NCBI RefSeq assembly: GCF_003003235.1
Contig: NZ_PVUE01000005.1
Span: forward strand, 124,001-188,000
DNA: 64,000 bases
Source of the DNA: Antricoccus suffuscus
GTDB taxonomy: Bacteria > Actinomycetota > Actinomycetes > Mycobacteriales > Antricoccaceae
Direction: 5' to 3'
Positions 1,290 to 22,571 of the stretch are shown piece after piece. Both the position numbers and the translations under genes were made by a program. The notes under the pieces were generated by a model that made no database searches, was not told the DNA's origin, and worked only from the letters and a program-made list of their open reading frames with translations. How positions within the stretch are numbered: the first letter of the stretch is position 1; every line of letters begins with the position of its first letter.

Positions 1290-1297
1290 CGTTGTTC

Positions 1298-3695: not shown

Positions 3696-3711
3696 GGGAT
3701 ATCGGACCAGT

Positions 3712-6386: not shown

Positions 6387-6388
6387 GT

Positions 6389-7078
6389 CTATCGCCCTCG
6401 TTCCGAGAGCACAGGGCTTGCCAGTGTCCTGTTCTCTGAGACACGGCGTAACGGTCTCGCGGGGTTACCCGCGACAGTCAAACCGTCAACCACGTCACCG
6501 AGCACGACCGATCCCATACCTACGACTGCCTCGGCGCCAACACACAGACCCTGCCGTACGGAGGTGTTCATTCCTAGATACGCGGCCTCGTTCACCCGAA
6601 CGCTGCCTCCGAGGGTCACTCCGGCGCATAGCGTTGCGAAGTCCTCAATGACATTGTCGTGGGTCAGTGTCGCGTTGGGCATTGCCACGACGTGCTCGCC
6701 TACCGACACCGCGGTCGTCATCACGACGTGCGCGAGCAGGATCGTACCGGCCCCGACGGTGCAGTCCGACGGGATGATTGCACTCGGATGAACGACCGTC
6801 GCATACCGGTCCCGGTGAATCCCCAACGCGCTCAGGTTGTGCGCGATGCTGCGCCGTACGATCCCGGAACCGGCGCACAGGAGGAATTTCGCTTCGGGGT
6901 GATCCGCCGCGTCCGTAATTGGACCAACGACCGGCACGCCATCGATAGACGTGCCACGCAACTCAGGGTTGTCGTCGAGGAAGCCAATTACCTTATGCGT
7001 GTCGGAGGCCCGTATAGCGCTAAGAACCTCCCGCGCGAGTCCCGATGCCGCAACAAGAAATAGCCGCTCGATTGCCAT
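6389..7078 (-). CDS. NeuD/PglD-like sugar O/N-acyltransferase
   Basis: A 229-residue member of the NeuD/PglD family. The N-terminal about 85 residues form a Rossmann-like domain (LFLVAASGLAREVLSAI, then GFLDDNPELRG). The rest is a left-handed beta-helix of hexapeptide repeats (VVHPSAIIPSDCTVGAGTILLAHVVM onward) ending in the family's VVAGNPARPLRR. In related pathways these enzymes use acetyl-CoA to acetylate the amino group installed by a neighbouring aminotransferase, and the aminotransferase at 7089 lies 10 bp upstream here. That pairing suggests a 4-acetamido sugar, but the 4,6-dehydratase identity of the next gene is not proven. The His expected in the PglD active site could not be assigned with certainty. 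Confidence 0.85.
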   Translation of the reverse strand: MAIERLFLVAASGLAREVLSAIRASDTHKVIGFLDDNPELRGTSIDGVPVVGPITDAADHPEAKFLLCAGSGIVRRSIAHNLSALGIHRDRYATVVHPSAIIPSDCTVGAGTILLAHVVMTTAVSVGEHVVAMPNATLTHDNVIEDFATLCAGVTLGGSVRVNEAAYLGMNTSVRQGLCVGAEAVVGMGSVVLGDVVDGLTVAGNPARPLRRVSENRTLASPVLSERGR

Positions 7079-7088
7079 TGCCGATCAC

Positions 7089-8219: not shown

Positions 8220-9211
8220 GCAGACGCACCCGCTTCGGCGGAGTTCGCTTCAACTTGTTCCGCACGCCACCAGTCAACAAGACCGCGCAGCCCCGACGCT
8301 AGGTCGATCTCGGCTTGGAAGCCCAGATCGGTCATTGCCGCCTGCGTGCTCGCCAGCCTGCGCGTGACACCGTTGACCGCACGCTCGGGACCGTGCTCGA
8401 GGGCCAGATCGGAGTCCATCGCCGCGAGCAGTGCACGCGCCAAATCGGCGAGACTCGTCTCGGTGCCGCTGGCCACGTTGTACACGCCCTCGTTGATATC
8501 CGACGTCGCGGCAAGCAGATTGGCCCGCGCGATATCGACCGTGTGGACAAAGTCCATGGTCTGCAGCCCATCGCCGAAGATCAGCGGCGGCTCACCGGCG
8601 GCGATCCGCTCCATCCACCGAATTAGCACCTCTGTGTACAGACCGTGGATATCCATCCGAGGACCGTAAACATTAAAGTAGCGAAGGGCGACATAGTTGA
8701 GCCCGTACATCGCACGGAAACTACGGATCATCCCTTCGTTAAAGGACTTGGCCGCACCGTAAAACGTGTCGTTGTTGTGGTGATGGTGCCGTTCGGTCGT
8801 CGGGAACTCTTCGGCCAGGCCGTAGACCGACGCTGACGACGCGGTGATAATCTTCTCCACCTTGTGCTGCGCGGCAGCCTCAAGGACGGTAAACGTCCCA
8901 TCCACGAGGACTTGTAGCGCCAGTCGTGGCTCTTCGGCGCACTGCGTGATGCGAATGGCCGCCTCGTGAAAAACGAGATCGGACCCTTTCGTTACGTCGT
9001 GGACCAGATCGACGTCCCGTAAATCGCCGACAACAAGTTGCAGTCGTGGATCGTCGAGCACATCGCTCAGGTTTTCGCGGCGACCACGCACGAAATTATC
9101 GAGGACGGTTACCTTCGCGGCACCCGCCTCAAGCAGTTGGTCGACGATTGTTGAACCGATGGTGCCCGCACCGCCGGTGACGAGAACATTTGCTCCCGGT
9201 ATTTCTGTCAT
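8216..9211 (-). CDS. NAD-dependent nucleotide-sugar epimerase/dehydratase (extended SDR)
   Basis: Extended short-chain dehydrogenase of 331 residues. NVLVTGGAGTIGSTIVDQL binds NAD, the active site has SSASVYG and YGAAK, and the C-terminal half carries RYFNVYGPR, typical of UDP-hexose 4-epimerases and related dehydratases. The family cannot be narrowed further from sequence: a 4-epimerase, or a 4,6-dehydratase feeding the next-door aminotransferase, are both possible. A run of four histidines followed by two asparagines precedes the catalytic tyrosine, which is unusual. It overlaps the aminotransferase by 4 bp and follows the oxidoreductase gene after 41 bp. Confidence 0.85.
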   Translation of the reverse strand: MTEIPGANVLVTGGAGTIGSTIVDQLLEAGAAKVTVLDNFVRGRRENLSDVLDDPRLQLVVGDLRDVDLVHDVTKGSDLVFHEAAIRITQCAEEPRLALQVLVDGTFTVLEAAAQHKVEKIITASSASVYGLAEEFPTTERHHHHNNDTFYGAAKSFNEGMIRSFRAMYGLNYVALRYFNVYGPRMDIHGLYTEVLIRWMERIAAGEPPLIFGDGLQTMDFVHTVDIARANLLAATSDINEGVYNVASGTETSLADLARALLAAMDSDLALEHGPERAVNGVTRRLASTQAAMTDLGFQAEIDLASGLRGLVDWWRAEQVEANSAEAGASA

Positions 9212-9252
9212 CTTAAATCCCCCGATTTATGACATTTATGTAGTTGGTTGAA

Positions 9253-10347
9253 TCATCCCGCGACAGGCAGCCCCACGGCAAGCTTGTCGAATTCATCTGC
9301 CTCGTCCTGCGGACGAATTGGTGCACCGCCGGCAGCGAGGCTCTCACCGACCGCGTTGAGCACCGAGAGTACGCGTACGCCGGCGTCGCCATCCGTCACC
9401 GGGGCGCGCTTGCCACGAATCGAATCAGCGAACTCCGCGACCATGTTGGAGAGCGCCTCACGCTCCGGAAGCGCCGGAACGGTGATGTCGCCGAGCCGGT
9501 AGGAAACCGACGTCGCCTTGCGGGCTTCGGGGTCCAGTCCGTCAATAGCCTGGGTCGTCAGATCGACACCGCGGTCGTGGATAGATATCCGCTGCTGCGG
9601 GTTGAGGTCGTCCCAGACCAGTGTGCGGCGGCTTCCGCCGACGACCATCTGGCGGATCTTGGTTGGCGACAGCCAGTTGACGTTGACGTGGGCGATCCCA
9701 CCCGATGCGAGCGGCATCGTCAGGTACCCGACACACGCCTTGCCCGCGCCAAGTGGGTCAGAGCCGTTGGCCGACACTGCCTCAGGACGAAGCCCGCCCG
9801 GAAGAATGAAATCCAGGATCGACAGATCGTGCGGTGCAAGGTCCCAGAAGACGTCGACGTCGGGCTGGATCAGACCAAGGTTAATGCGTACCGAGTCGAT
9901 GTACAAAATGTCGCCGAGCTCGCCACTTGCCACTACATCGCGGATATATTTGACCGCCGGCGTGTAGCAGTAGGTGTGATCGGTCATCAATACGAGTCCC
10001 GCTTCACGCGCTGCGTTGACCATCGCGATAGCCGACTCCATCGTGTCCGCGAGCGGCTTCTCTACGAGTACATGCTTGCCGGCCGCCAGCGCTGCAAGCG
10101 CGATCGGCGCGTGCGTATGCGCCGGTGTGGCGATCGCAACGGCATCGACGTCATCGCGCGCCAGTACGGCTTCGAGCGAAGTCTCGATGTCGATAGTTGA
10201 GCGCGCCCCGACGACGCGCTTGGCGCGATCCTCGTCGAGATCGCACACAGCGACAAGATCCCAATCGGAACTGCCACGGAAATTTCTAACTAGATTTGGA
10301 CCCCAATAGCCCGCGCCAATTACGGCGGCCCCCACAGCCTGAGACAT
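9253..10347 (-). CDS. Gfo/Idh/MocA oxidoreductase, WlbA/WbpB-like sugar dehydrogenase
   Basis: NAD(P)-dependent dehydrogenase of 364 residues: AAVIGAGYWGPNLVRNF is the dinucleotide loop, EKPLADT the conserved lysine motif, and VFWDLAPHDLSILDF carries the catalytic-region histidine. The GYWGPNLVRNF start and the APHD motif match WlbA/WbpB enzymes, which oxidise C3 of UDP-GlcNAc uronate before transamination. The 3-N-acetyltransferase partner (WlbB/WbpD type) lies divergently at 10596. First gene of the minus-strand glycan operon, with a 248-bp shared upstream region. Substrate is inferred from family and neighbours; other sugar dehydrogenases of the family look similar. Confidence 0.85.
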   Translation of the reverse strand: MSQAVGAAVIGAGYWGPNLVRNFRGSSDWDLVAVCDLDEDRAKRVVGARSTIDIETSLEAVLARDDVDAVAIATPAHTHAPIALAALAAGKHVLVEKPLADTMESAIAMVNAAREAGLVLMTDHTYCYTPAVKYIRDVVASGELGDILYIDSVRINLGLIQPDVDVFWDLAPHDLSILDFILPGGLRPEAVSANGSDPLGAGKACVGYLTMPLASGGIAHVNVNWLSPTKIRQMVVGGSRRTLVWDDLNPQQRISIHDRGVDLTTQAIDGLDPEARKATSVSYRLGDITVPALPEREALSNMVAEFADSIRGKRAPVTDGDAGVRVLSVLNAVGESLAAGGAPIRPQDEADEFDKLAVGLPVAG

Positions 10348-10524
10348 TATTCAACTTTCTACTCACTCGGTCCGCCCCCGGACCGATCCCCCGTTAATGA
10401 CCTCACTGTACAAGCCAAGGGCGATCCTGTCTGCAGGTCAGGAAAGATAAATACACCACCTCACCTGCATTCAACGTAAAAACGCCGTGGGCCTGCCGCC
10501 CGCGGACCTGTCGTGTTGTCCAGT

Positions 10525-10578
10525 ACCGTGGTTCCACTGCGGGATCTAGACCGTCTGCTATCGACGGTCGACCACGGT
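10525..10578 (+). promoter_or_regulatory. Nested inverted repeats in the leader of the WbpD-like gene
   Basis: Two inverted repeats are nested: outer arms ACCGTGG (10525-10531) and CCACGGT (10572-10578), inner arms GACCGTC (10549-10555) and GACGGTC (10563-10569). The structure ends 17 bp before the ATG at 10596 and would occlude little of the GGGGCGAC ribosome site. It lies in the 248-bp divergent region between the oxidoreductase and acetyltransferase genes. It may be an operator or an RNA leader fold; no riboswitch family was recognised. Confidence 0.45.
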
Positions 10579-10595
10579 CAGACAGGGGCGACGAA

Positions 10596-11192
10596 ATGAA
10601 AATGAATTCAATCGCGAATTCATTAGAAGCTGTGTATGTGCACCCAAACGGCCTTTGCGAGAGCGACGATGTCGGTCCCGGTACGCGAATCTGGGCATTC
10701 GCGCACGTCTTGCGGGGTGCGCGCGTTGGAGCCGACTGCAATATTTGTGACGGAGCGTTCGTCGAAGGACGGGCTGTGGTCGGCGATCGCGTTACGGTCA
10801 AGAACCAAGTACTGGTTTTCGACGGCGTGACGATCGAAGACGACGTATTCCTCGGGCCGGGCGTGGTGTTTACCAACGACCTGAAACCAAGAGCACACAT
10901 AAAACGTGGTCCCGAATCGCTGCTTTCGACAACGGTGCGGCGCGGTGTCACGCTCGGCGCCGGCGTAGTAGTCGTGTGCGGCACTACTATTGGCGATCAC
11001 GCATTCGTGGGAGCCGGGACAGTCGTTGTTAAAGACGTCCCAGACCATGGCTTCGTCGTCGGAAATCCTGGCAGGCTCGTTGGTTGGGTGTGTGTTTGTG
11101 GCGAACGACTACCGACGGAGTTACGTTGCGAGTGCGGACGCGAATACCGGACAACGGACTCGGGCCTACGTGAGTTGTCGACCCAGCCCTAG
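10596..11192 (+). CDS. WbpD/WlbB-like sugar N-acetyltransferase with Cys-rich tail
   Basis: Left-handed beta-helix acetyltransferase of 198 residues. VHPNGLCESDDVGPGTRIWAF followed by CNICDGAFVEG and EDDVFLGPGVVFTND closely follow the WbpD/WlbB family, which acetylates the 3-amino group of UDP-2-acetamido-3-amino uronates with acetyl-CoA. After the VVGNPGRLVGW end of the helix there is a tail with two CxCG pairs (VCVCGERL, RCECGREY) that looks like a small zinc ribbon. ATG at 10596 follows GGGGCGAC. Its 3' end overlaps the convergent hydrolase gene by 27 bp. It pairs with the WlbA-like dehydrogenase, but the UDP-GlcNAc 6-dehydrogenase of the complete pathway is not in the window. Confidence 0.88.
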   Translation: MKMNSIANSLEAVYVHPNGLCESDDVGPGTRIWAFAHVLRGARVGADCNICDGAFVEGRAVVGDRVTVKNQVLVFDGVTIEDDVFLGPGVVFTNDLKPRAHIKRGPESLLSTTVRRGVTLGAGVVVVCGTTIGDHAFVGAGTVVVKDVPDHGFVVGNPGRLVGWVCVCGERLPTELRCECGREYRTTDSGLRELSTQP

Positions 11193-12884
11193 CTGCTTCC
11201 GATAACTATCCGGAGCATCCTGCTCGGGTACCCCTTCCGGACGAACGGGGAACCGGCTAAGGAGGTCTGCACTAATTGCAGACATCGCGCAGTTCTGCCC
11301 TTCCTGTGTCATCAACGGATGATCAATCTCGGCAGATCTGAGCATCCGGTACCTGCCAGACCGTCTCATTCGCCACGTGTGGAATGCCGTCCAGTAAGCG
11401 CTCTCCGTGAAATGGCGGCCATCGTTCGGGCTCACAACGAGGATTACATCCGTTCCCTTCCGAGTAAGCGCAGAAACGGCGGCCATAGGCGCATTCCAGA
11501 CGGTTACCTGCCGATACATGCGCCACAATAAGGCTGCCAGCCGCGGTCGCGCCGCATAGAGCCGCAGTATTGGGGCGATCGGCGGCCGCGCGGCGACTCG
11601 ACGCGAATCGTGTAAATCGGACGCTTTACTCGTCACGGTCGCATGCAGGATCACATTAATCGCGTAGATGGCAGCAACGTGCTCTTGGAAGGCCGTTTCC
11701 ATGGCACTGTAGGCACCCGAACATAGCGAGATCAGCACCACCGGCGACCCCGCCAACTCTTCCGAGCGCAACGCTTCGGGCATGTCGCCCAACCACTCGC
11801 GCGCATAAAGGACACCAAACCGCTGACCCTCGTGACACGGACTGTCGCCCGCTCCACTCTGGTCCATACGCAGTACGCGGAACCCTTGCACTGCCCACAA
11901 TCGCGCGTAATCAACCCACCTGCGGCCCGGCCCAACATGGCGATCATTAGCGACGTTAATCAGTACGACGGTCGGTGCGCGACGCAATCTTGCTGGCTCG
12001 GTAACGACGCCAAACAACCCGATGCGGCCTAGCGAAACCACTCTCTCGGTGAGCAGCCGACCTTCCTCGTCCGCTGACAGGGTCAGCTTTTGTGTGAGCC
12101 TCGCTCGGAGATGCTGCGGTGGATGGCGGGCGATCTCCTGCAGCCAAAGCACAATCCGACCGAGCGACTCCATAGGCACCGCGTTATCTGTCATCGGCAG
12201 GTCGAGCAGGTCCTCTTGACCGACAGCTGGGCCCCATTCGGTGTCACCTCCGTCGAGCCGCCTGCGCAACGCGCGCGGCGTTGGTCGATCATCTCGGGTG
12301 AGTACCAGCAGGCGCGAGGCAATGTCCCCGGGCGGAAGACTTGCCACTGACAGCTCGCGCATGTCGCGGCTGGTATCCGGCGAGTACAGGTAGCCCGGCG
12401 TGTCAGCAGCCCCGGCGGCCGGCTCACGCTGGCTCGGACGGCGCGCCTGTCCCTCACGCAGCAGGCTCTTACCGCCGCATGGATCCCACAGCACCAGGGC
12501 ATCGAGGTCGATCAGCCCGCGTTGTGTAGCGGCCGTGACCAGTGACGCACCAAAGCGCATTCCCACAGCCGCGACCTTGCTTACGCCGATTTCTCGGAGT
12601 GACTCATGTGCCGTCTGAACGCTGCCTATCCATGCCTCCACCCGTCCGGGGTCGGTCCAACTGCCCATCGAGTCGCCCGTGCCGTGGTAGTCGAATCTCA
12701 AGGAAGCAATGCCCTGAGTCGCGAGGGCATAGGCCAATTCCCGAAAGGTCTCATGGGCGTTATGTTCTTCTTCGCCGACCGATGCGCAAAGCAACACGCC
12801 CAAAGACGCCTCTTCGGTGTCTGGCACGCAAAGCCACCCGAACAGGGCACGATCAGGTGGTCCGAACCATCCTGGGCTATCCAC
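11166..12884 (-). CDS. Tandem alpha/beta-hydrolase protein, exosortase-associated-hydrolase-like
   Basis: A 572-residue protein with two alpha/beta-hydrolase units. The first (1-250) has LRFDYHGTGDS and an elbow G-M-R110-F-G where hydrolases have GxSxG. The second (280-560) has LRMDQSGAGDS and an elbow S-L-C388-S-G, with a late IDHPL that could hold the catalytic histidine. So the first unit lacks a serine nucleophile and the second may use cysteine. The GxRxG variant recalls hydrolases found beside exosortase/EPS systems. It follows the methyltransferase by 3 bp in a two-gene minus-strand operon divergent from the carrier-protein operon, which suggests acyl transfer or release from the carrier. 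Function is inferred only. Confidence 0.75.
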   Translation of the reverse strand: MDSPGWFGPPDRALFGWLCVPDTEEASLGVLLCASVGEEEHNAHETFRELAYALATQGIASLRFDYHGTGDSMGSWTDPGRVEAWIGSVQTAHESLREIGVSKVAAVGMRFGASLVTAATQRGLIDLDALVLWDPCGGKSLLREGQARRPSQREPAAGAADTPGYLYSPDTSRDMRELSVASLPPGDIASRLLVLTRDDRPTPRALRRRLDGGDTEWGPAVGQEDLLDLPMTDNAVPMESLGRIVLWLQEIARHPPQHLRARLTQKLTLSADEEGRLLTERVVSLGRIGLFGVVTEPARLRRAPTVVLINVANDRHVGPGRRWVDYARLWAVQGFRVLRMDQSGAGDSPCHEGQRFGVLYAREWLGDMPEALRSEELAGSPVVLISLCSGAYSAMETAFQEHVAAIYAINVILHATVTSKASDLHDSRRVAARPPIAPILRLYAARPRLAALLWRMYRQVTVWNAPMAAVSALTRKGTDVILVVSPNDGRHFTESAYWTAFHTWRMRRSGRYRMLRSAEIDHPLMTQEGQNCAMSAISADLLSRFPVRPEGVPEQDAPDSYRKQLGLGRQLT

Positions 12885-12887
12885 ACC

Positions 12888-13748
12888 TCACTCCAACGGC
12901 CGCAGCGAATCGCCTGACATCGGCTTGCGGGCCACTACGTGAAACCACGGCGTGGATGTCTCGGCATGATCAATCTCCATCGTCTCACCCTCACGAGTAA
13001 CCGCGCGGACAAAATCGAAACCGTTATCGACGACTTCGCGACGAGCTTCGATCGCTGTCACATAGTGCACGACCAGGTCCCACTCATGTGTCGGCATCGT
13101 GTCGATCGCCCAACTCCCGTGATCCTCAAACTTCGGTCGTAGTCGACGGACATTCGCAAAACCACGTAGATGTTCGATCGGCCGTTGCGCTAGCCGCGCA
13201 ACAAAACGCGCCGCCTGGTACGGTCCCGGCCGATGTCCATCCTTGCCGACGGGCCCAGGTCCACACTTGTAGAAATTCCCGCTCCGGTTGAGTGTCGAGT
13301 AAACCAGCAAGCCACCGGGCAGGAGCACGCGAAAGAATTCACGCAACGCCTGATTACGACCATCGTGATCCAGGGAGTCGAGGCCCGCGTGGCTAAAGAA
13401 GACCAACGCGAAGTGGTCATCCCGAAAATCAACCAGACTCCGGGCATCGGCAAGCTGGATCCGCTTGTTCGGCAGATTCCGATGGGCCAACTCCACCATC
13501 TCCGGGGTGTAGTCGACCGCCACGTAGTCCCCGCTCAGCAGACCAACGAGCCACGCCGATCGGCCGGCGCCGACACCAACATCGAGTAGCGGCCTCCCCC
13601 TGACCTCATCGGCGATCGAGTGCACGACGAGCCGCTCACCGGGATCGGTCCAGGAGTCAAGCTTGGCGTAGACAGCCGAATCGCGCGTCCAAACGGAACT
13701 GTTGACGTCTCGGGCAATTGCCCGTGGCAATGTCGGATCATTCGTCAT
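12888..13748 (-). CDS. SAM-dependent class I methyltransferase
   Basis: A 286-residue methyltransferase: LLDVGVGAGRSAWLVGLL is the SAM-binding motif I, VAVDYTPEMVELA motif II, and DDHFALVFFSHAGLD with LPGGLLVYSTLN complete the Rossmann fold. I start at MTNDP because GGGGGG lies about 7 bases upstream; the open frame extends to 13805. It is translated 3 bp ahead of the tandem hydrolase. The start is 176 bp from that of the divergent phosphopantetheinyl transferase, so the region between holds both promoters. Substrate is unknown; by context a small molecule or sugar/acyl group handled by the adjoining carrier-protein system. Confidence 0.82.
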   Translation of the reverse strand: MTNDPTLPRAIARDVNSSVWTRDSAVYAKLDSWTDPGERLVVHSIADEVRGRPLLDVGVGAGRSAWLVGLLSGDYVAVDYTPEMVELAHRNLPNKRIQLADARSLVDFRDDHFALVFFSHAGLDSLDHDGRNQALREFFRVLLPGGLLVYSTLNRSGNFYKCGPGPVGKDGHRPGPYQAARFVARLAQRPIEHLRGFANVRRLRPKFEDHGSWAIDTMPTHEWDLVVHYVTAIEARREVVDNGFDFVRAVTREGETMEIDHAETSTPWFHVVARKPMSGDSLRPLE

Positions 13749-13924
13749 ACCAACCCCCCGGAATGGCGTCGGTTCGAGTACCCGCGCAAACGTCACAGCG
13801 AGCACGACGGGACACGCCGAATGTTACGCCGTTTCGGCGGCCGCGCGCGGGGCCACCTGGTCAATCTGAAGTCTTGACACGCCAGGTTTGGCGGAGTCAG
13901 GAAAACGGTTCTAGTGTTCGCCTC

Positions 13925-14359
13925 ATGAGTGAAAGTTGCCGACTTGGATCGGCGCCGTTGGGCTTCGACATCCGAGTCGGCACCGACATCCAAGCCATCG
14001 ACGAAATCGAGCGGTCGATCCGGATGTATGGGGCACGATATCTTTCCCGCCTCTTCACTCCGCATGAAATCGAGAGTTGCGGCCCAGTCGATGCCGCGCC
14101 GAAACTACTAGCGCCCGGGGCCACTGCGCGATTCGCCGCGAAAGAGGCAGCGCTGAAGGTCCTCCGACCCACCGACCGGATCCCAAATTGGCGTGACATC
14201 GAGGTCCAACGTCAACCGGGCGGGTGGTGCGAGCTGAATCTGACAAATGCTGCCAGAGAACTCGCGGCCGAAGGCGGGTTCAGCCAATTTTCGCTATCAA
14301 TAAGTCACGGCTCAACTCACGCCGTCGCGACGGTCATAGGTATACGGTGGCCTGGGTAA
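13925..14359 (+). CDS. AcpS-type 4'-phosphopantetheinyl transferase
   Basis: A 144-residue holo-ACP-synthase-type enzyme that transfers 4'-phosphopantetheine from CoA to a carrier-protein serine. The magnesium ligands are visible: GTDIQAIDEI (Asp21) and RFAAKEAALKVL (Glu74), with RLFTPHEIESC between. The C-terminal SISHGSTHAVATVIG is the usual last strand. The start at MSESCRL fits family length; a longer frame to 13718 has a non-homologous arginine-rich extension. It is the first gene of the plus-strand operon, 84 bp before the carrier protein it most likely primes. A housekeeping acpS is presumably elsewhere. Confidence 0.88.
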   Translation: MSESCRLGSAPLGFDIRVGTDIQAIDEIERSIRMYGARYLSRLFTPHEIESCGPVDAAPKLLAPGATARFAAKEAALKVLRPTDRIPNWRDIEVQRQPGGWCELNLTNAARELAAEGGFSQFSLSISHGSTHAVATVIGIRWPG

Positions 14360-14394
14360 ACCCAAGTCCTGAGGACTGGCTTATGCAGGTACTG

Positions 14395-14413
14395 CTCCTG
14401 GGGAGACCAGGAG
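14395..14413 (+). other. Small hairpin between the PPTase and carrier-protein genes
   Basis: CTCCTGG and CCAGGAG pair around a GGAGA loop in the 84-bp gap. No T-run follows, so it is not a convincing terminator; it may attenuate or separate translation of the PPTase from the more abundant carrier protein. Confidence 0.3.
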
Positions 14414-14443
14414 ACAATTGAAGAGGAAATCGGGGGATTTCTC

Positions 14444-14707
14444 ATGGACCCAATGGACGCGGACGTCCGATCAGTGCTTTCTGCACACGGGCGGCTGCCC
14501 ATCGACGTCGACACGTTATCGGCCGACGCAGATCTATACCGGGCGGGGTTGACGTCGCACGCGAGCGTTAATGTCATGCTCGCGCTTGAAGACACGTTCG
14601 ATGTGGAGTTTCCGGACTCCATGCTCCGCAAGAGCACATTCGAATCCATCACGGCCATCACCGCCGCGCTCACCCAACTCGGGGCCGCAACCCCGTCGCG
14701 CGTGTAG
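14444..14707 (+). CDS. Stand-alone aminoacyl/acyl carrier protein
   Basis: An 87-residue phosphopantetheine-binding carrier protein. The helix-2 motif LYRAGLTSHASVNVMLALED puts the attachment serine at residue 38 and is the form seen in carrier proteins paired with amino acid:[carrier protein] ligases rather than the DSL of fatty-acid ACPs. A GGGGG ribosome site lies about 8 bases before the ATG. It is followed after 9 bp by the dehydrogenase and, two genes on, by its likely ligase. Expected role: to hold an amino acid as a thioester for the flavoenzyme and downstream transfer. Confidence 0.9.
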   Translation: MDPMDADVRSVLSAHGRLPIDVDTLSADADLYRAGLTSHASVNVMLALEDTFDVEFPDSMLRKSTFESITAITAALTQLGAATPSRV

Positions 14708-14716
14708 GCGGCGGCA

Positions 14717-15895
14717 ATGTCCGTGATCTCGGAAGAGCAAGGGACACAGGCGATTCAGCCTATTGTGGCTGCAGCGCAACGCATCGGCGTCGAGGTGGCC
14801 GCGCCGGCCGCCGAGGATGTCGACGCGCGATCCCGATTCCCGCAAGAGGCAATCGATGCGATGCGCGATGCCGGGCTGCTGCGCGCCCTGATTCCCGTTG
14901 AACTGGGCGGGCTCGGCTGCACCTTGAAGGAAGTGGCCTCCGCAGTCACCGAACTCGGGCGGCACTGCTCGTCGGCCGCGATGGTCTACGCCATGCATCA
15001 AATCCAGGTCGCCTGCCTCGTCAGGCATGCGCGTTCGCCGCAACTGCTCGACTTCATCAGAGACGTGGCCGACCGCGGTTTACTGCTCGCCTCCGCGACG
15101 ACCGAAGTCGGGATTGGTGGCGACGTGCGCAGTAGCACCTGCGCGGTGCTGGGTCAGAACGGACAGTTCGAGCTCACGAAGCAGGCACCGGTGATCTCCT
15201 ACGGCCAGTACGCCGATGCCGTGTTGGCCACGGCCCGCCGTGACCCCGAAAGCCCGCCCAACGACCAGGTCCTGGTGGTCTGTCGCCGGGAAAACCTCCA
15301 ACTCGAAGAGAAGTCGAGTTGGGACGCGCTCGGATTCCGCGGCACCTGCAGCCTCGGTTTTATCCTCCGGGCCACCGGTCCGCGCACGGACATCGTCGAT
15401 GACCCGTACGGTGACATCTCCAGCCAGACCATGCTTCCGGTCTCGCACATCCTCTGGTCCTCACTTTGGCTCGGGATCGCGACCGCGGCGAGTGACAAGG
15501 CCCGTAAGTTCGTACAGGCGGCAGCCCGCAAGACACCGGGCACGGTGCCGCCAAATGCGCTACGGCTAGCCGAGCTGACCAACGTACTCAGTCAACTGCA
15601 CCACGTTGTAATCGGCACGCGCACTCGCTACGCCGAGGTCGCCGACGATCCGGACCAGACCACGTCGATCGGATTCGCCGTCTCGATGAATGCACTGAAG
15701 GTCTCCGCATCCACGCTCGTCGTCGACATCGTGCAGCGCGCTTTGCTGATCTGCGGGATGGCCGGCTACGCCAACCACAGCCCGTTCACGCTCGGTCGGC
15801 TCCTGCGAGACGCGTACGGCGCGCAGCTCATGGTCAACAACGACCGGATCAACGCCAACAACGCGCAGTTGCTGCTCGTCGCCCGGGAGTCATAG
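14717..15895 (+). CDS. Acyl-CoA-dehydrogenase-like flavoprotein
   Basis: A 392-residue FAD enzyme of the acyl-CoA dehydrogenase fold: helical N-domain (FPQEAIDAMRDAGLLRALIPVELGGLG), beta middle domain (LASATTEVGIGGDVR, WDALGFRGTCS) and a helical C-domain ending in YANHSPFTLGRLLRDAYGAQLMVNNDR. Immediately downstream of the carrier protein and 2 bp ahead of the amino acid ligase. Enzymes of this fold (PltE/RedW type) oxidise prolyl groups on carrier proteins, so oxidation of an aminoacyl thioester is a reasonable hypothesis. The catalytic base could not be assigned from the sequence alone. Confidence 0.87.
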   Translation: MSVISEEQGTQAIQPIVAAAQRIGVEVAAPAAEDVDARSRFPQEAIDAMRDAGLLRALIPVELGGLGCTLKEVASAVTELGRHCSSAAMVYAMHQIQVACLVRHARSPQLLDFIRDVADRGLLLASATTEVGIGGDVRSSTCAVLGQNGQFELTKQAPVISYGQYADAVLATARRDPESPPNDQVLVVCRRENLQLEEKSSWDALGFRGTCSLGFILRATGPRTDIVDDPYGDISSQTMLPVSHILWSSLWLGIATAASDKARKFVQAAARKTPGTVPPNALRLAELTNVLSQLHHVVIGTRTRYAEVADDPDQTTSIGFAVSMNALKVSASTLVVDIVQRALLICGMAGYANHSPFTLGRLLRDAYGAQLMVNNDRINANNAQLLLVARES

Positions 15896-15897
15896 TC

Positions 15898-16824
15898 ATG
15901 GCCGCGAACGCGACCGATACTCCAACTGCGCAGCTGATATTCCGCGATGAGTTAGTTAATGCTGGAATTTTGGCCCGCTCCGCAGTGGACGGTCTCTATC
16001 ACCGCTCTCGTACGTTCGAAAACATCGTGCGCGGCGTCGAAGCGGCAGCGTCCGCCGCAGGCGAAGGACGCGCCGAGCCGATGCTGTACTTCCCGCCGCT
16101 GATGCCACGCAGCGTGTTCGAGCTGACTGACTACCTCCGCTCTTTTCCGGACTTAATCGGCTCTGTCGACACCTTCGTCGGCTCAGATCGTGACCATGCG
16201 GCGCTTTTACAGGTCGCCGATGAGGGTGGCGACTGGACGCAGGCGCTGACGCCTTCCGAAGTGGTGCTTTGCTCGGCGGCGTGCCACCCGCTCTACCCAA
16301 GTTTGACGGGGGTCATGCCGACGGGCGGGCGCACATTCGAGCTGCAGGGGTACTGCTTCCGGCACGAACCGAGCGTCGACCCGGCGCGGATGCAAAGCTT
16401 CCGGCAGTACGAGTACGTGTACGTCGGTGAACCCGACGGCGCCACCGAACACCGGGACAGTTGGCTGGACCGTGGCCAAGATCTGCTGGGAAGTCTGAAG
16501 CTCCCGGTGGACCGGGTGATCGCCAATGACCCCTTTTTCGGTCGGGTGGGCCGGATGCTCGCGGCGAATCAGAAAGAAACCGCGCTGAAGTTCGAGATCG
16601 TCTGCCCGATCACCTCGGACCAGTCACCGACCGCGATTGCCTCAGCGAACTGCCATCTGGACCATTTCGGGCGCCCGTTCTCCATCACCACCTCGGACGG
16701 CGAACCGGCCCATTCGGCGTGCATCGGCTTCGGTCTTGAACGAATAGCACTGGCGCTGCTGAAGACTCATGGTCTAAACCCAGACCGCTGGCCCTCGGGC
16801 GTGCGAAGCAGGTTATGGCCATGA
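15898..16824 (+). CDS. Amino acid:[carrier protein] ligase (SerRS-like class II aaRS homologue)
   Basis: A 308-residue homologue of the seryl-tRNA-synthetase catalytic core without a tRNA-binding arm. Class II motif 2 is visible as FRHEPSVDPARMQSFRQYEYV (from residue 154) and motif 3 as GFGLERIAL (277-285). Candidate zinc ligands are Cys129 (or Cys125), Glu172 and Cys275. Characterised relatives adenylate glycine or alanine and load it onto a neighbouring carrier protein, not tRNA. The gene follows the dehydrogenase by 2 bp and overlaps DUF1839 by 10 bp. The amino acid selected here is unknown. Confidence 0.92.
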   Translation: MAANATDTPTAQLIFRDELVNAGILARSAVDGLYHRSRTFENIVRGVEAAASAAGEGRAEPMLYFPPLMPRSVFELTDYLRSFPDLIGSVDTFVGSDRDHAALLQVADEGGDWTQALTPSEVVLCSAACHPLYPSLTGVMPTGGRTFELQGYCFRHEPSVDPARMQSFRQYEYVYVGEPDGATEHRDSWLDRGQDLLGSLKLPVDRVIANDPFFGRVGRMLAANQKETALKFEIVCPITSDQSPTAIASANCHLDHFGRPFSITTSDGEPAHSACIGFGLERIALALLKTHGLNPDRWPSGVRSRLWP

Positions 16825-17804
16825 CACTCTCCCTGCTGCCGATCGACGCCGCCTCATATCAACAGGATCCGCTGCATCGCAGCGACCGGGTCTGGACCGA
16901 GACGAACTGCTACGTCGACGTGTGGATCGAGCTCCTGCACGCCCTAGGCCTCGACCCGCTCGCCTGCGCGGCTTTTCCGATCAGCACCGACTTCGAGGTC
17001 GGTCAGTGGACGTTTTTCAAGTTTCCACCGGAAGACTTGCGTGCGGCCTACGGGATCGACGTATTCGAGATGAATGCATGGCGCCCGATCATCGAGCACG
17101 TCGCGGAAGAACTCGCGCGGGGGAGGCTGCTCACCGTCGAGGTCGATTCGTGGTTTCTCCCTGACACCCGCGGAGTCTCCTACCAGATAGCGCATGTCAA
17201 GTCGACGATCGTGGCACAGATGCTCGACGTCGACGCGCGCCGACTGGGCTATTTCCACAATGCGGGATATTTCGAGTTGTCTGGAGATGACTTCGATGGG
17301 GTCTTCAGACTAGGCCAGCATGCCAACCCCGAAGGGTTGCCGCCATACGTCGAGATAATTCGGCTCGATCGACTACGCCGCAAGGATCCAGAACAGCAAC
17401 TCAGGTCGACCGTCGAGCTGCTGCGCACGCACCTAAGCAGGTTGCCAACCACCAACCCGATGTACCGATTCCATTCGCGACTGGAGTCCGATATCGATTG
17501 GCTTCGCTCCCATGGGATCGAAGGTTTCCACGCATACGCCTTCGGGACGTGCAGGCAATGCGGCGCGAGCGCCGAGCTCGCCGCATCCTTCGTCGAGTGG
17601 CTTGCCGCGCGTGAGCCAAGCGGACCGGGCGACCTGCCCAAGGCCGCCGCGGCGTACCGCTCGATTGCCGACCGCTGCAAGGCGCTCGAGTTCGGGCTGG
17701 CCCGACTCGCGCGAGGAAGGAACATCGATTTGGATGGGATCTTCAGTCAGTTGGCCACGGACTGGGATGATGCAACGACGATCTTGACCGCGCGATACGC
17801 CTAG
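16815..17804 (+). CDS. DUF1839 family protein
   Basis: A 329-residue protein recognised as DUF1839 by its start (LPIDAASYQQDPLHRSDRVWTETNCYVDVWIELLHALGLDP) and by its place after an amino acid:[carrier protein] ligase. Conserved-looking parts are SFLP-like WFLPDTRGVSYQIAHVKSTI and GYFHNAGYFELSGDDF. The TNCY start and the overall pattern suggest an enzyme with an N-terminal cysteine region, possibly a transferase taking the aminoacyl group from the carrier, but no function has been established that I know of. It overlaps the ligase gene by 10 bp and precedes the GH2 gene by 5 bp, so it is fully part of the operon. Confidence 0.85.
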   Translation: MAMTLSLLPIDAASYQQDPLHRSDRVWTETNCYVDVWIELLHALGLDPLACAAFPISTDFEVGQWTFFKFPPEDLRAAYGIDVFEMNAWRPIIEHVAEELARGRLLTVEVDSWFLPDTRGVSYQIAHVKSTIVAQMLDVDARRLGYFHNAGYFELSGDDFDGVFRLGQHANPEGLPPYVEIIRLDRLRRKDPEQQLRSTVELLRTHLSRLPTTNPMYRFHSRLESDIDWLRSHGIEGFHAYAFGTCRQCGASAELAASFVEWLAAREPSGPGDLPKAAAAYRSIADRCKALEFGLARLARGRNIDLDGIFSQLATDWDDATTILTARYA

Positions 17805-17809
17805 ATGAA

Positions 17810-20296
17810 ATGACGACGCCAAATTCAACAGATGGCACCACGTGGGAGTGTGCCGCTGTCCGGTCTGGCTCCGCGCTTGACCCGCCATCGTTGCGCATCC
17901 TTCCGATGGTCACTTGGATCCCAATCGAAGTACCGGGCACGGCTGCGGCCGCGTTGAGAGCGGCTGGCAGACCATTTCGCGATCGCGACTACGACGACGA
18001 GGACTGGTGGTTTCGCGCCCAGCTCTCGCGCCCGCACGGCCCCGGTCCATGGGTCCTCGAGTTCGGCGGGCTTGCGACCATCGCGGACGTGTGGCTCAAC
18101 GACGAGCATCTACTGCACTCCGAAAACATGTTCCAGACTCATCGCCTAGATATCGAGGAACTCGCTGATGGCAACGAACTACTTATCCGGTGCGCGGCGC
18201 TCCATCCTTTGCTGTCTAAGCGAAAGCCGCGCCCACGATGGAAAGTCGCGCGACTCCAACATCGCGGGCTGCGCTGGATCAGGACGACTCTGCTCGGCCG
18301 GCTGGAAGGCTGGCCGCACACTCCTCCACCCGTCGGACCGTGGCGCGACCTACGACTCAGCGAACGCGCGAAGATCGACCTGGTGGAGCGAGACCTGCAC
18401 GCCCGATGTCACCCCGACGGACCGGGCGGATCGGTCACCGTCGACCTCACACTGCGCGGCGTGCTCGCGGATGGTCCAGCACACCTTGTCGTCGGCGATC
18501 ACAGTGTGCAGTTGGACCTACACTTGCTCGACAGCGACGACGGTCGACTCTGGCAAGTTTCTGGGGAAATTGCGCTGCCTGAGGTCGAGCACTGGTGGCC
18601 GCACACACACGGCGAGCAACCGCTGTATTCAGTTGCACTTGAGATCGACGGCTCACGAATCGACCTCGGTCGAGTGGGATTCCGGACCATCGAAGCGGAC
18701 CGCCACGATGACGGCTTGACGCTGATCGTCAACGGCACTCCCATCTTCGCCCGCGGCGCTTGCTGGACACCGATGGACCCGATAAGTTTCACTGCCACGC
18801 ATGGAGATCAGCGTCGCGGTCTATTGCAACTGCGCGACGCCAACCTTAATGTTGTCCGAGTCAGCGGCGAAACCATCTACGAGGACGACGCCTTTCTCGA
18901 TCTCTGTGACGAACTCGGCCTACTCCTGTGGCAGGACTGCATGCTCGCGTTCTACGACCCACCAGACGATCCCGACTGGGCCGGCTCCTTCACCACCGAG
19001 ATCGACCAGCAGCTGACCCGACTACAAGGACGACCCTGTGTCACTGTAATCAGTGGCGGCAGCGAGATCGAGCAACAGGCGACGTACGCCGGCCGTGGCG
19101 GTATCGACACCATCACCGCCCTCGACGCGCTCATCCCCGAGGCGCTTCATAAGCGGCTGCCTCAGGTGCCCTATCTCCCATCCAGCCCGACCGGTGGCGA
19201 CATCCCGACCCGACCAGACACGGGAGTGGCGCACTACTACGGTGTGGGTGCCTATCTGCGTGAGCTCGACGATGCGCGTCGATCGGGGGTTCGTTTCGCC
19301 GCAGAGTGCCTTGCCTTCGCGACACCGTCCGAGCCGCGGACAATCGACGAGGTGTACGGCGGACCGAGCTCCGCCGGCCACCATCCCGAATGGAAGCGTT
19401 CCGTCTATCGGGACGCGGGTGCGTCGTGGGACTTCGAGGACGTGCGCAACCACTACACGCGGTTGTTGTTCGGCGTCGATCCCGACCAGATCCGCTACTA
19501 CGACGCAGATCGAGCGCTTGAACTCGGACGAGCGACCGTGGCCGAGCTCTTCACCGCGACAATGTCGGAGTGGCGCCGCACGTCATCTCCGATGGCCGGC
19601 GCCATCATCTTCCATCTCCGCGATCTCGTCGCGGGCGCTGGGTTAGGCATTGTCGACGCCCTCGGGCAACCTAAGGCTCCGTGGCACGTACTGCGACGGC
19701 TTATGGCACCGGTCGCTGTAGCACTTACCGACGAGGGGCTCAACGGCCTGGCCGCACACCTCGTAAATGACACCGGCCAGACATTCAACGGGGTTCTCCG
19801 TGCAGAGTTATTTACGAACGGCGAGTTGTGCGTAGACAGTGCTGAGATACCGATCAACATAGGTCGACGCGACGGCCTCACGGTCACAATTGATTCCATG
19901 TTCACCGGGTTTCGCGATCTCACGTGGGCGCACAAATTCGGACCAATTGCGTACGACGTCATCGGCGTCACGCTCCTAAACGCGGACAGCGATCCGGTGT
20001 CGAGCGCCGTGCACCTGCCGGGCGGGCCTGCGCGCGACCGAGAGCCAGACTTGGGCTTGACTTCTTCACTGGCACAATCCGGATCTGAAGATTGGCATGT
20101 AGAAGTCGAATCGCGCCGATTCGCCCAGTGGGTCTCACTGGACGTACCGGGCTGGAACCCCGATGACTCGTGGTTTCACCTACTTCCCGGCCAAAGACGC
20201 GATATCGCCCTGCACCCTACCGAAGCCGCGCCCAGCAAGCCGACCGGATACATTAGGGCGCTCAACTCGGCTGCGACCAAACGCTTTACAGCGTGA
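17810..20296 (+). CDS. GH2 beta-mannosidase-like protein
   Basis: An 828-residue glycoside hydrolase family 2 protein: galactose-binding-like N-domain (VLEFGGLATIADVWLNDEHLLHSEN), immunoglobulin-like domain, then a TIM barrel (VVRVSGETIYEDDAFLDLCDELGLLLWQD). The acid/base glutamate is retained in ISGGSEIE (usually GNNE) near residue 424, and RFAAECLAF near 496 matches the nucleophile region (usually SEFG). So it may be an active but divergent enzyme. No signal peptide, so a cytoplasmic substrate. It ends the carrier-protein operon, an odd partner for an aminoacyl ligase: it may trim, or bind, a glycan that receives the acyl group. Confidence 0.85.
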   Translation: MTTPNSTDGTTWECAAVRSGSALDPPSLRILPMVTWIPIEVPGTAAAALRAAGRPFRDRDYDDEDWWFRAQLSRPHGPGPWVLEFGGLATIADVWLNDEHLLHSENMFQTHRLDIEELADGNELLIRCAALHPLLSKRKPRPRWKVARLQHRGLRWIRTTLLGRLEGWPHTPPPVGPWRDLRLSERAKIDLVERDLHARCHPDGPGGSVTVDLTLRGVLADGPAHLVVGDHSVQLDLHLLDSDDGRLWQVSGEIALPEVEHWWPHTHGEQPLYSVALEIDGSRIDLGRVGFRTIEADRHDDGLTLIVNGTPIFARGACWTPMDPISFTATHGDQRRGLLQLRDANLNVVRVSGETIYEDDAFLDLCDELGLLLWQDCMLAFYDPPDDPDWAGSFTTEIDQQLTRLQGRPCVTVISGGSEIEQQATYAGRGGIDTITALDALIPEALHKRLPQVPYLPSSPTGGDIPTRPDTGVAHYYGVGAYLRELDDARRSGVRFAAECLAFATPSEPRTIDEVYGGPSSAGHHPEWKRSVYRDAGASWDFEDVRNHYTRLLFGVDPDQIRYYDADRALELGRATVAELFTATMSEWRRTSSPMAGAIIFHLRDLVAGAGLGIVDALGQPKAPWHVLRRLMAPVAVALTDEGLNGLAAHLVNDTGQTFNGVLRAELFTNGELCVDSAEIPINIGRRDGLTVTIDSMFTGFRDLTWAHKFGPIAYDVIGVTLLNADSDPVSSAVHLPGGPARDREPDLGLTSSLAQSGSEDWHVEVESRRFAQWVSLDVPGWNPDDSWFHLLPGQRRDIALHPTEAAPSKPTGYIRALNSAATKRFTA

Positions 20297-20348
20297 CTCC
20301 GCTTCGCGCCCGTACTGAGGGCGTCTTGGACCGCAAGAAAGTCACGGA

Positions 20349-20750
20349 ATGCTCTTAGTACCTCTGATTTCGTTAGCGGTGCTGGTGATTGCGGCAATCG
20401 CCAGCAGAATCACGCGATCACCAATAGCTGCTGTTTTTCTGGCGCTCGCGAGCGGCATCTGGCTGGTTGCTAACAATCGGCTCGAAGGTCCGGTTTTGAT
20501 CACCTTCACCCCTAGGAATGGACTGACAGCCACCGACCTACTAGGTCTTGTCGGCTTCTTTTACGCGCTGTACATCGTCTGGGAGCGGTATGTCGATTCA
20601 ACCCGCCTACGTGTCCGGCGCTGGGCTCTAATCGGGCTTTGTGCCGCGGTATTCCTAGTGTTGCCGGTAACCAAGCTGTTTATTTCGCTACTTTACCCCT
20701 GCCTCTTTGAACAGATCCGGTTGTCGTGGGTCGGCGTACTCATCGGCTAG
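20349..20750 (+). CDS. Small membrane protein of unknown function
   Basis: A 133-residue reading frame with three to four hydrophobic helices (LLVPLISLAVLVIAAIAS, IAAVFLALASGIWLVAN, LLGLVGFFYALYIVW, WALIGLCAAVFLVLPVTKLFISLLY) and positively charged loops such as RLRVRRW. The strong alternation of hydrophobic and charged stretches supports a real gene, although the ribosome site (AAGAAAG) is weak. It lies 52 bp after the GH2 gene on the same strand and is probably the end of the operon. I do not recognise a family. Confidence 0.6.
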   Translation: MLLVPLISLAVLVIAAIASRITRSPIAAVFLALASGIWLVANNRLEGPVLITFTPRNGLTATDLLGLVGFFYALYIVWERYVDSTRLRVRRWALIGLCAAVFLVLPVTKLFISLLYPCLFEQIRLSWVGVLIG

Positions 20751-20898: not shown

Positions 20899-20935
20899 AG
20901 CTCTAAACGTTCGCGTCCAGCTCTAAACGGTCGCG
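20899..20935 (+). repeat. 20-bp direct duplication at the ugd stop codon
   Basis: AGCTCTAAACGTTCGCG (20899-20915) is repeated as AGCTCTAAACGGTCGCG (20919-20935), one mismatch in 17 with a period of 20 bp. The second copy contains the end and TAG stop of the UDP-glucose dehydrogenase gene; the first is a copy just beyond it. The rest of the 172-bp gap between 20751 and 20922 shows no other clear structure. Confidence 0.7.
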
Positions 20936-22269
20936 AGCGATAAAGCGCCATTCGCACTCGCACGTCCAAGTGCCCGATAACTCCACCCTGCGGCCCGCCA
21001 CACCGCTGGATCCAGCACATTCCGGCCGTCGAGAATGCAGCGATTTCGCACGAGCTGAGCGAGGGAATCGGGATCCAGCTCTCGATACTCGGACCATTCG
21101 GTCAGCAACAACACCGCATCCGCGTTCAGCACTGCTTCGTAAATCGGCTTCGCGTAAGTCAACGTTGGCTGGACCCGAGCAGCATTATCCAACGCCTGTG
21201 GATCAGTGACAATGACTGTCGCGCCGCCGGCCTGCAGCGCCGCGGCAATGTCGAGAGCGGGAGAGTTACGTACATCGTCACTATCCGGCTTGAACGCAGC
21301 ACCCAGCACTGCGATTCGCTTTCCACGAATAGAACCGCCGCACTCTTCGATTGTCAGCTCAACCATCCGATGGCGACGCCGTTCGTTGATCGCATCGACT
21401 TCCCGAAGGAATGACAGTGGCTCGGACGCGCCGAGCTCCGCTGCTCTTGCCATGAACGCGCGGATGTCCTTCGGAAGGCATCCACCGCCGAACCCGACTC
21501 CGGCGTTGAGGAACCGCCGACCGATGCGCTTGTCGTGTCCAATAGCATCAGCGAGCTGCGTGACGTCACCGCCAGTGATCTCGCACAATTCCGCCATCGC
21601 GTTGATGAAGGAGATCTTGGTGGCGAGGAACGAGTTCGCGGCTACCTTGACGAGTTCGGCTGTCACGAAGTCGGTCTGCACTACGGGTGTCCCGTCCTTG
21701 ATCGTGGCCGCATAGACCTCGTCTAGCATCGCCTTCGCGATGGTGTGGGCATATCCAACTGGCAGTCCGTAGACGAGCCGGTCTGGGTGCAGCGTGTCCT
21801 TTACCGCGAAACCTTCGCGCAGGAACTCCGGATTCCAAGCGAGCATCGCCGACGGCTGTGCTTCTCGAATGGCAATATCCAACCGCGCCGCCGTGCCTAC
21901 CGGCACCGTCGACTTACCGACGACTAGCGCGCCCTCGCCAAGGTATGGGATAAGCGCATCGATCGCGCTGTCCACGTAAGTCAGGTCCGCGGCGTATTCG
22001 CCCGCCTTTTGCGGCGTACCGACACATAAGAAATGCACGTCCGCATCACGCGCGCTGGCCATGTCGGTGCTGAACCTGAGTCGACCGGATGCGAGCGCTT
22101 CGTTGAGCACCTCGGGCAGACCCGGTTCGTAAAATGGCGCCTGGCCTGCGCTTAAGGTATCGATCCGATTCTGATCGATGTCGATACCAACGACTTCGTG
22201 GCCCAGTTTTGCCATGGACGCTGCGTGCACTGCCCCCAGATAACCGCAACCTATTACAGAAAGCCTCAT
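20923..22269 (-). CDS. ugd: UDP-glucose 6-dehydrogenase
   Basis: A 448-residue NAD-dependent dehydrogenase making UDP-glucuronate from UDP-glucose by two successive oxidations. MRLSVIGCGYLGAVHAASMAKLGHEVVGID is the dinucleotide fold, NPEFLREGFAV the middle-domain signature, and GFGGGCLPKD contains the catalytic cysteine. The GGGCLPKD form marks the UDP-glucose type, not the WecC/WbpA UDP-HexNAc type (GGHCIPVDP). The start at MRLSVIG is preceded by GGGGGGAC; the frame is open to 22308. Divergent from the UDP-GlcNAc 2-epimerase. It probably feeds the glycan cluster or cell-envelope uronic acids. Confidence 0.92.
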   Translation of the reverse strand: MRLSVIGCGYLGAVHAASMAKLGHEVVGIDIDQNRIDTLSAGQAPFYEPGLPEVLNEALASGRLRFSTDMASARDADVHFLCVGTPQKAGEYAADLTYVDSAIDALIPYLGEGALVVGKSTVPVGTAARLDIAIREAQPSAMLAWNPEFLREGFAVKDTLHPDRLVYGLPVGYAHTIAKAMLDEVYAATIKDGTPVVQTDFVTAELVKVAANSFLATKISFINAMAELCEITGGDVTQLADAIGHDKRIGRRFLNAGVGFGGGCLPKDIRAFMARAAELGASEPLSFLREVDAINERRRHRMVELTIEECGGSIRGKRIAVLGAAFKPDSDDVRNSPALDIAAALQAGGATVIVTDPQALDNAARVQPTLTYAKPIYEAVLNADAVLLLTEWSEYRELDPDSLAQLVRNRCILDGRNVLDPAVWRAAGWSYRALGRASANGALSLATV

Positions 22270-22571
22270 TTCATGTCCCCCCGAACATTGAGAATGGCTG
22301 CCTTGCATTCTGCCGCATTACGCCGCGGAATGCCATCGCATCACGAAAATCGAGGCGCGACTAACTCGGAGCATCGCGTCAGCGCGACTGTGCGCGCACC
22401 GTCCGGCCCTGTCGTCACGTCCCGCCGAAAGGCGGCTGGCACCAGTTTCCGCCGGCTTCTCGGCGGCACGAGCACAAGCGATATGGTTACGCCGCGAGGC
22501 TTTGGGCCAGGTGAGCCTGGGTACGGCGTCCATGACGCGGCTATCGGTTGATGTGACTTAGAGGAGCGAAG
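22270..22571 (+). promoter_or_regulatory. 302-bp divergent intergenic region between ugd and wecB-like genes
   Basis: No gene is supported here. It carries the ugd ribosome site next to 22270, and GAGGAG just before 22572. In between are two consecutive perfect stem-loops: CCGCC-GAAA-GGCGG at 22422-22435 and CCGCCG-GCTTCT-CGGCGG at 22449-22466. They would lie in the leader of the epimerase mRNA about 105-150 bases upstream of its start. No confident -35/-10 pair could be chosen. Confidence 0.5.
22422..22466 (+). other. Two tandem stem-loops upstream of the UDP-GlcNAc 2-epimerase gene
   Basis: The first has a 5-bp GC stem closed by a GAAA tetraloop, the second a 6-bp GC stem with a 6-base loop. 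No U-tract follows the second, so simple termination is unlikely; an RNA leader element or protein site is possible. Confidence 0.4.

Follow-up and report, generated by a model that had tools for sequence, protein, structure and literature searches.

We analysed a 64,000-nucleotide stretch of the Antricoccus suffuscus genome (assembly GCF_003003235.1, contig NZ_PVUE01000005.1, forward-strand positions 124,001 to 188,000; hereafter the window, in whose own numbering its features are given). It carries a cassette in which genes for a carrier protein (CP), a flavoprotein of the acyl-CoA dehydrogenase (ACAD) fold, a ligase resembling seryl-tRNA synthetase (SerRS), a DUF1839 protein and a glycoside hydrolase family 2 (GH2) protein stand together, and the same set recurs in other genomes. 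This gene set is a real cassette. We propose, tentatively and with confidence falling just short of even, that it encodes a CP-templated aminoacyl transfer pathway, located probably in the cytosol, in which an amino acid would be loaded onto the CP, oxidised there and transferred in an amide-forming step by DUF1839, with further steps carried out by the GH2 protein and by a tandem hydrolase encoded alongside.

The genes of the window's forward strand follow one another closely. An AcpS-type phosphopantetheinyl transferase (PPTase; 13925..14359; PF01648, 44 bits against a cut-off of 25) is followed by the CP (14444..14707; PRK07081, 107 bits against 72), the ACAD-fold flavoprotein (14717..15895; N-terminal domain PF02771, 54.6 bits against 22.9), the SerRS-like ligase (15898..16824; PRK07080, NF005479, 417.9 bits against 357), the papain-like DUF1839 protein (16815..17804; PF08893, 370 bits against 22.5) and the GH2 protein (17810..20296; N-terminal domain PF22666, 66 bits against 27). 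The CP and ACAD genes are separated by 9 bp and the ACAD and ligase genes by 2 bp, ligase and DUF1839 overlap by 10 bp, and 5 bp lie between DUF1839 and GH2; gene calls and family searches agree on these six genes and their spacing, as described in the initial annotation, which was made from the sequence alone. The PPTase open reading frame (ORF) opens at 13718, and an in-frame ATG at 13925 is the more likely start, so that an overlap with the divergent neighbouring gene is not required. That neighbour, an S-adenosylmethionine-dependent methyltransferase (12888..13805; PF13649), and the tandem alpha/beta-hydrolase (11166..12884; PF12146) lie on the reverse strand.

We surveyed the surroundings of DUF1839 genes with an alignment scan of one genome per species, which returned at least 593 candidate stretches, at least 552 of them encoding a relative. 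Eighty loci were kept; the window and four further loci of its phylum bring the set to 85, in each of which relatives of the window proteins were sought among ORFs anywhere in the locus. GH2 is present in 79 of the 85, ACAD in 72, and ligase and CP in 70 each; the tandem hydrolase (49, including two loci with short pieces only), the PPTase (34) and the methyltransferase (8, window included) are less frequent. In every locus with an ACAD the top-scoring one reaches 440 bits or more against the profile, indicating that these are not stray dehydrogenases. Many loci stop at a contig edge; among the 45 long loci, in which DUF1839 is flanked by 6 kb or more on either side, GH2 occurs in 44, CP, ACAD and ligase in 37 each, and the hydrolase in 30. 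CP, ACAD, ligase, DUF1839 and GH2 are found together in 34/45 long loci, and all six genes, with the hydrolase, in 27/45. The commonest same-strand order, CP-ACAD-ligase-DUF1839-GH2-hydrolase, is seen in 11 of the 45, and eight, all from Rhodococcus or Rhodococcoides, have DUF1839 and GH2 alone together on one strand. Eight phylum labels are represented among the loci that hold all five genes.

The initial annotation had suggested searching for the ligase-DUF1839-GH2 set across genomes, and the set recurs in this survey, in Burkholderiales and on plasmids. Among 250 Burkholderiales genomes, DUF1839 was found in six and a ligase over the cut-off in seven, with six common to both; one of the six DUF1839 genomes (G464) served as a chosen centre and had been picked for holding the cassette. 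On plasmids, 56 of 59 DUF1839 records fall among the best 60 of 93 ligase records, and in 50 of those 56 the two genes lie at most 1.5 kb apart, counts to which many near-identical plasmids, and several species with many plasmids each, contribute. The gene set is patchy, occurring in 3/396 genomes of the phylum and 3/61 relatives, with the window's own genome in both counts. On the DUF1839 tree the eight phylum labels need 12 changes, where the minimum is 7, which suggests transfer but falls short of proof, as labels of metagenome-assembled genomes (MAGs) are possibly wrong. Pairwise distances of ligase, ACAD, DUF1839 and GH2 correlate with one another (rho 0.56-0.73, 0/200 permutations as high), as expected of genes travelling or descending together; the weakest correlation is that between hydrolase and PPTase (rho 0.30, 6/200 permutations). 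Our literature searches, some of them broad and represented by their best matches listed, gave no paper on this cassette.

Individual records vary the arrangement. In Azospirillum brasilense MTCC4038 (L095:6101-7029) DUF1839 is annotated as two adjacent coding sequences and is thus split in that record, and on a Rhizobium conjugative plasmid (L158:9968-10954) it is kept with no annotated cassette partners in the stretch examined. On plasmids of Rhizobium gallicum and R. acidisoli strains from bean (L118 and L156) the cassette comes directly after nif genes, fdxB and an annotated repressor gene of exopolysaccharide production, and GH2 is annotated only in R. gallicum.

The earlier assignment of the SerRS-like enzyme to the amino acid:carrier protein ligase family held up, the PRK07080 score being over a curated equivalog cut-off. 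The ligase scores 252-254 bits against chains of the Bradyrhizobium ligase Bll0957 (3mey, 4h2w), with which it aligns over its residues 28-304. Cys129 (70/70), Glu172 (67/70, Asp in the other three) and Cys275 (70/70) align with Bll0957 at the zinc-ligand positions. Only residues 117-305 of its 308 align with the SerRS model, at positions 306-504 of 518, and it therefore lacks the tRNA-binding domain. In the CP the pantetheine site, Ser38, is kept in 71/71 sequences. Loading of amino acids onto carrier proteins by SerRS-like enzymes has been on record from about 2010, and the relatives of the window ligase are of the glycine/alanine type. We know of no downstream step for such ligases; for Bll0957, to our knowledge, loading alone has been described, and no acceptor enzyme. 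The bll0957 tag adjoins bll0958, which encodes an acyl-CoA dehydrogenase, and the two show raised levels in a phaR mutant (PMC10888616). In the proposed pathway the PPTase would convert the CP to its holo form, and the ligase would activate a small amino acid, glycine or alanine, and load it onto the CP as a thioester.

An ACAD-fold partner of the ligase is present, as anticipated; the accompanying analogy with proline-to-pyrrole oxidation proved weak. That the enzyme desaturates a CP-bound amino acid, as in prolyl-to-pyrrolyl synthesis, would suit its fold and a faint similarity to PigA (38.6 bits, cut-off 500) and RedW (20.2 bits, cut-off 650). We nevertheless regard it as very improbable. 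The C-terminal catalytic Glu of canonical acyl-CoA dehydrogenases is absent: its position, read from an alignment with 1ukw, is Val373 in the window and holds Val in 51, Ile in 20 and a gap in 1 of 72 sequences, other base positions used by some ACADs not having been checked systematically. Moreover, the ligase relatives, of the glycine/alanine type, handle no proline ring, and glycine has no beta carbon. His94 and His244 are conserved in 72/72 sequences, and Asn375 and Arg377 in 71/72. The best matches in the PDB include DnmZ, KijD3-like and nitrososynthase chains; ordinary acyl-CoA dehydrogenases score equally or higher, so that a sugar-type N-oxygenase is a hint only. The flavoprotein would oxidise the aminoacyl group held by the CP, with the amine or the C-alpha-N bond as its most likely target; given that glycine lacks a beta carbon, C-alpha-N oxidation or N-oxidation is our simplest guess.

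DUF1839 is most likely a carrier-dependent amide-forming enzyme, to judge by its predicted structure. Its AlphaFold2 (AF2) model is of high confidence (mean pLDDT, the per-residue confidence score, 95.3), and in a Foldseek search of the PDB all 13 rows at E<=0.001 are CtaG, AziU2-U3 or CcbD. A second aligner (VIA) placed CcbD first (Z 19.8 over 289 residues, root-mean-square deviation 3.4), followed by AziU3/U2 (Z 18.0-18.8) and CtaG (Z 16.5-17.0); the next entry drops to Z 8.2. The initial annotation had DUF1839 passing an acyl group on, and the model lends weight to this: over its full length the fold is that of CcbD, which forms amides with an amino-sugar acceptor. Cys32, Ser/Thr130 and His148 are each found in 85/85 sequences, in agreement with the published C-(T/S)-H triad of DUF1839 (PMC10318531), and His127 is likewise invariant (85/85). 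The invariant C32 lies near the N-terminus, as does the catalytic Cys of CcbD/LmbD-type enzymes, and is a putative counterpart of CcbD Cys19. CcbD moves a CP-tethered proline to its Cys and from there to the amino group of a thiooctose, a ping-pong amide formation (PMC12945683). DUF1839 would similarly take the acyl group onto Cys32 and hand it to an amine in the manner of CcbD/LmbD, and a sugar amine is the likeliest single candidate for the acceptor. The single DUF1839 paper that we found conjectures acyl-CoA-dependent glycan processing at the cell wall from gene context (PMC10318531); the carrier gene next to DUF1839 points instead to a carrier protein as the probable acyl donor.

The nearest solved relatives of the GH2 protein are beta-mannosidases (134 bits to 5n6u). 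Aligned with these, the acid/base Glu419 is kept in 65/70 sequences (Asp in 4, Gln in 1) and the nucleophile Glu499 in 69/70. The window protein has GWPHTPPPVGPW in place of the mannosidase FGWDWGP and so does not carry the WDWGP segment of the mannose-binding region, and its substrate probably differs from that of the mannosidases. A hydrophobic N-terminus, as expected of a secretion signal, was absent from 70/70 GH2 sequences, which would suit a cytosolic enzyme but is a weak check, as the sequences were trimmed to the profile match. The GH2 protein may act after the transfer, trimming or freeing a glycoside.

The tandem hydrolase is related to the exosortase-A-associated hydrolases. It scores 74.3 bits against hydr2_PEP (TIGR03101) and 63.1 bits against hydr1_PEP (TIGR03100), both best in domain 1 and both under the family cut-offs (202.75 and 168.45), which leaves it a relative rather than a member of those families; the domain order, hydr2 then hydr1, is visible in the relative from Rhizobium NLR16a (L091). 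In domain 1 the site of a lipase's nucleophile Ser is taken by Arg, in a G-x-Arg-x-G motif (Arg110, 44/45), and domain 2 has Cys388 at the nucleophile elbow (45/45) together with His522 (44/45). The same pattern is seen in the exosortase-A system: of 15 hydr1 sequences, all 13 that are correctly framed have the Cys and the His, and nine ORFs beside hydr1 genes carry WGLR, with Arg at the elbow. One exosortase-A hydrolase 1 match, in L142, has an in-frame TAG. Structure offers little here, the model (pLDDT 86.4) having as its best listed matches ordinary esterase/lipase-type rows, nearly all of single-domain-size chains, that are uninformative on function. In Rhizobium NLR16a a Polysacc_synt_3 flippase is fused to both hydrolase domains, and in L046 the open frame continues from the hydrolase into a membrane-protein-like stretch for which there was no Pfam match. 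We suggest that the tandem hydrolase, through its Cys-nucleophile domain, would perform a second transfer or a release, a step that one lineage or more would place close to export across the membrane. The initial annotation had paired this gene with the methyltransferase as part of the pathway. The hydrolase is indeed nearly core (49/85 loci); the methyltransferase, in 8/85, is an accessory, and methylation an optional step.

The conserved Cys and His of domain 2, their equivalents in the 13 hydr1 sequences and the flippase fused to the tandem in L091 could also be taken to mean that this hydrolase domain is the actual acyltransferase, and DUF1839 a thioesterase or protease-like editing enzyme. 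We consider that improbable, as the hydrolase is missing from 15/45 long loci and the high-scoring fold matches of DUF1839 are to carrier-dependent biosynthetic enzymes only. Nor does a nonribosomal peptide synthetase (NRPS) fusion help: in L023 a C-A-T protein ends in a single hydrolase domain, which is no proof that the Cys domain acts on carriers because its elbow residue is Arg, making it the Arg type and not the Cys type. Elsewhere, L035 (378-5320) has a parallel module adjoining its cassette, in which an AMP-forming ligase is joined by another ACAD and by hydr2-like and hydr1-like domains encoded as separate genes.

The window's cassette sits among glycan genes. To its left (24..11192) are a WsaF-like glycosyltransferase, two DegT aminotransferases, two GT2 glycosyltransferases, a flippase, a PglD-like protein, an NAD epimerase, a Gfo/Idh/MocA oxidoreductase and a hexapeptide transferase; to its right (20923..23717) are a UDP-glucose/GDP-mannose dehydrogenase on the reverse strand and a UDP-GlcNAc 2-epimerase on the forward strand. 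Between the cassette and the right-hand genes, a short ORF resembling a membrane protein, the last of the examined range (20349..20750, forward strand), is outside the conserved cassette and had no match in the family searches and no relative in the other DUF1839 loci searched. Comparable settings occur elsewhere: loci labelled Acidimicrobiales or Acidimicrobiaceae have at least one glycan-assembly gene in 8/9 cases and at least two in 7/9, two GT4 genes lie near the cassette of Rhizobium NLR16a, and in Tsukamurella a variant with no DUF1839 places ligase, CP and PPTase within an exopolysaccharide cluster. Over all 49 long cassette loci, at least one glycan-assembly gene was found in 17, versus 2/20 control stretches (P=0.04), and at least two in 7/49 versus 0/20 (P=0.10); ten of the 14 glycan query proteins came from cassette loci, and the 20 controls, from four genomes, were unmatched.

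Several results count against the proposed pathway. Once self-hits are excluded, the glycan comparison falls to 14/49 versus 2/20 (P=0.12) for at least one gene and 4/49 versus 0/20 (P=0.32) for at least two, and with the excess no longer significant we reject a glycan neighbourhood as a general rule; the glycan island of the initial annotation stands for the window, such a setting is common in the Acidimicrobiales-type loci, and for the cassette overall it is optional. The cassettes of Azospirillum and Mycetohabitans hold the six genes with no adjoining glycan-assembly genes. For DUF1839, identity with CcbD is 11%, a profile search of PDB sequences gave no link to CcbD or CtaG (best E 0.39, unrelated chains), and the C-(T/S)-H triad reported for DUF1839 (PMC10318531) differs from the Cys-His-Glu of CcbD. 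Among the 15 loci with no ligase, some of them shortened by a contig end, 11 genomes carry one elsewhere; for L030, L038, L065 and L070, all MAGs by title, none was found, either at the locus or elsewhere in the genome. Candidate replacements are an AMP-forming ligase about 2 kb beyond the hydrolase in L038 and another about 3.5 kb before the CP in L065; none was noticed in L030, where the ORF list of the 21-kb locus was judged by eye. No ORF of L059 matched ACAD. The last such point is a row on a Priestia megaterium plasmid (L163:6139-14686), a variant with no DUF1839, in which a holo-ACP synthase, a CP, an ACAD and a ligase (393 bits, over the cut-off) are accompanied by a DMT exporter, an ATP-grasp protein, a small hydrolase, an alanine permease and an alanine racemase; upstream lies a gene for a D-Ala-D-Ala ligase. 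The ATP-grasp protein resembles dapdiamide synthase (211 bits, below the cut-off of 840), and a dipeptide-ligase-like protein of this kind in the place of DUF1839 suits a peptide-like product.

This row may encode a pathway to an alanine analogue, some of its genes perhaps conferring self-resistance, and alanine is its likely substrate. Its ACAD is 39% identical to that of the window and keeps all of the 33 conserved positions compared except for V373I. Read with the bare cassettes of Azospirillum and Mycetohabitans and the patchy distribution in the phylum, it favours a different product for the cassette, a small molecule that diffuses, for instance an altered glycine or alanine amide or a peptide-like antimetabolite, built on a non-glycan acceptor and relieved of a protecting sugar by GH2 in prodrug fashion. 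We think such a product possible but rather unlikely for the cassette, in view of the near-constant GH2 gene (44/45 long loci), the fused flippase and the nearby GT4 genes of Rhizobium NLR16a, and the glycan-assembly genes at eight of the nine Acidimicrobiales-type loci. CP, ACAD and ligase look like a module able to feed different amide-forming enzymes.

Known systems resemble the proposed aminoacyl transfer pathway in parts. In teichoic acid D-alanylation by Dlt, too, an amino acid, a ligase and a carrier protein feed a surface glycan; there, however, loading falls to DltA, an adenylation enzyme of the AMP-forming kind, and transfer to enzymes unrelated to those of the cassette. The exosortase-A hydrolases 1 and 2 are homologous to the tandem domains and have in common with them the Cys elbow in hydr1 and the Arg in the ORFs beside it, whereas the cassette domains are fused and score below the family cut-offs. 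CtaG of closthioamide and AziU3/U2 of azinomycin share the DUF1839 fold at 13-15% identity and have other substrates and partners; for CtaG, acyl transfer from one carrier to another has been proposed (PMC6772006). The lincosamide condensing enzymes CcbD/LmbD have in common with the cassette the full-length fold, a carrier protein, a separate loading enzyme and an amino acid passed to an amine (PMC12945683, PMC4351081). They differ in having an NRPS adenylation domain for loading where the cassette has a SerRS-like enzyme, in the reported DUF1839 triad, in the partners of the cassette (GH2, ACAD and tandem hydrolase) and in the lack of any sequence similarity that we could find.

For SerRS-like carrier ligases the cassette supplies a predicted acceptor enzyme, whose mechanism is open to experiment, along with a partner set that is conserved under eight phylum labels. 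It also brings a proposed functional assignment for DUF1839, for which the earlier suggestion was glycan processing from genomic context, and it shows that the exosortase-A hydrolase pair has an unusual Arg/Cys active-site pattern in common with a carrier-protein cassette. In its fullest form our proposal is a thiotemplated pathway found across phyla, in which ligase, flavoprotein and CcbD-fold DUF1839 would assemble an amide of an oxidised aminoacyl group on a sugar, and the Cys-nucleophile tandem hydrolase would pass it to an exported glycan. We judge this full version unlikely to hold in every part; if true, such a pathway would supply the SerRS-like carrier ligases with the physiological role that they have lacked.

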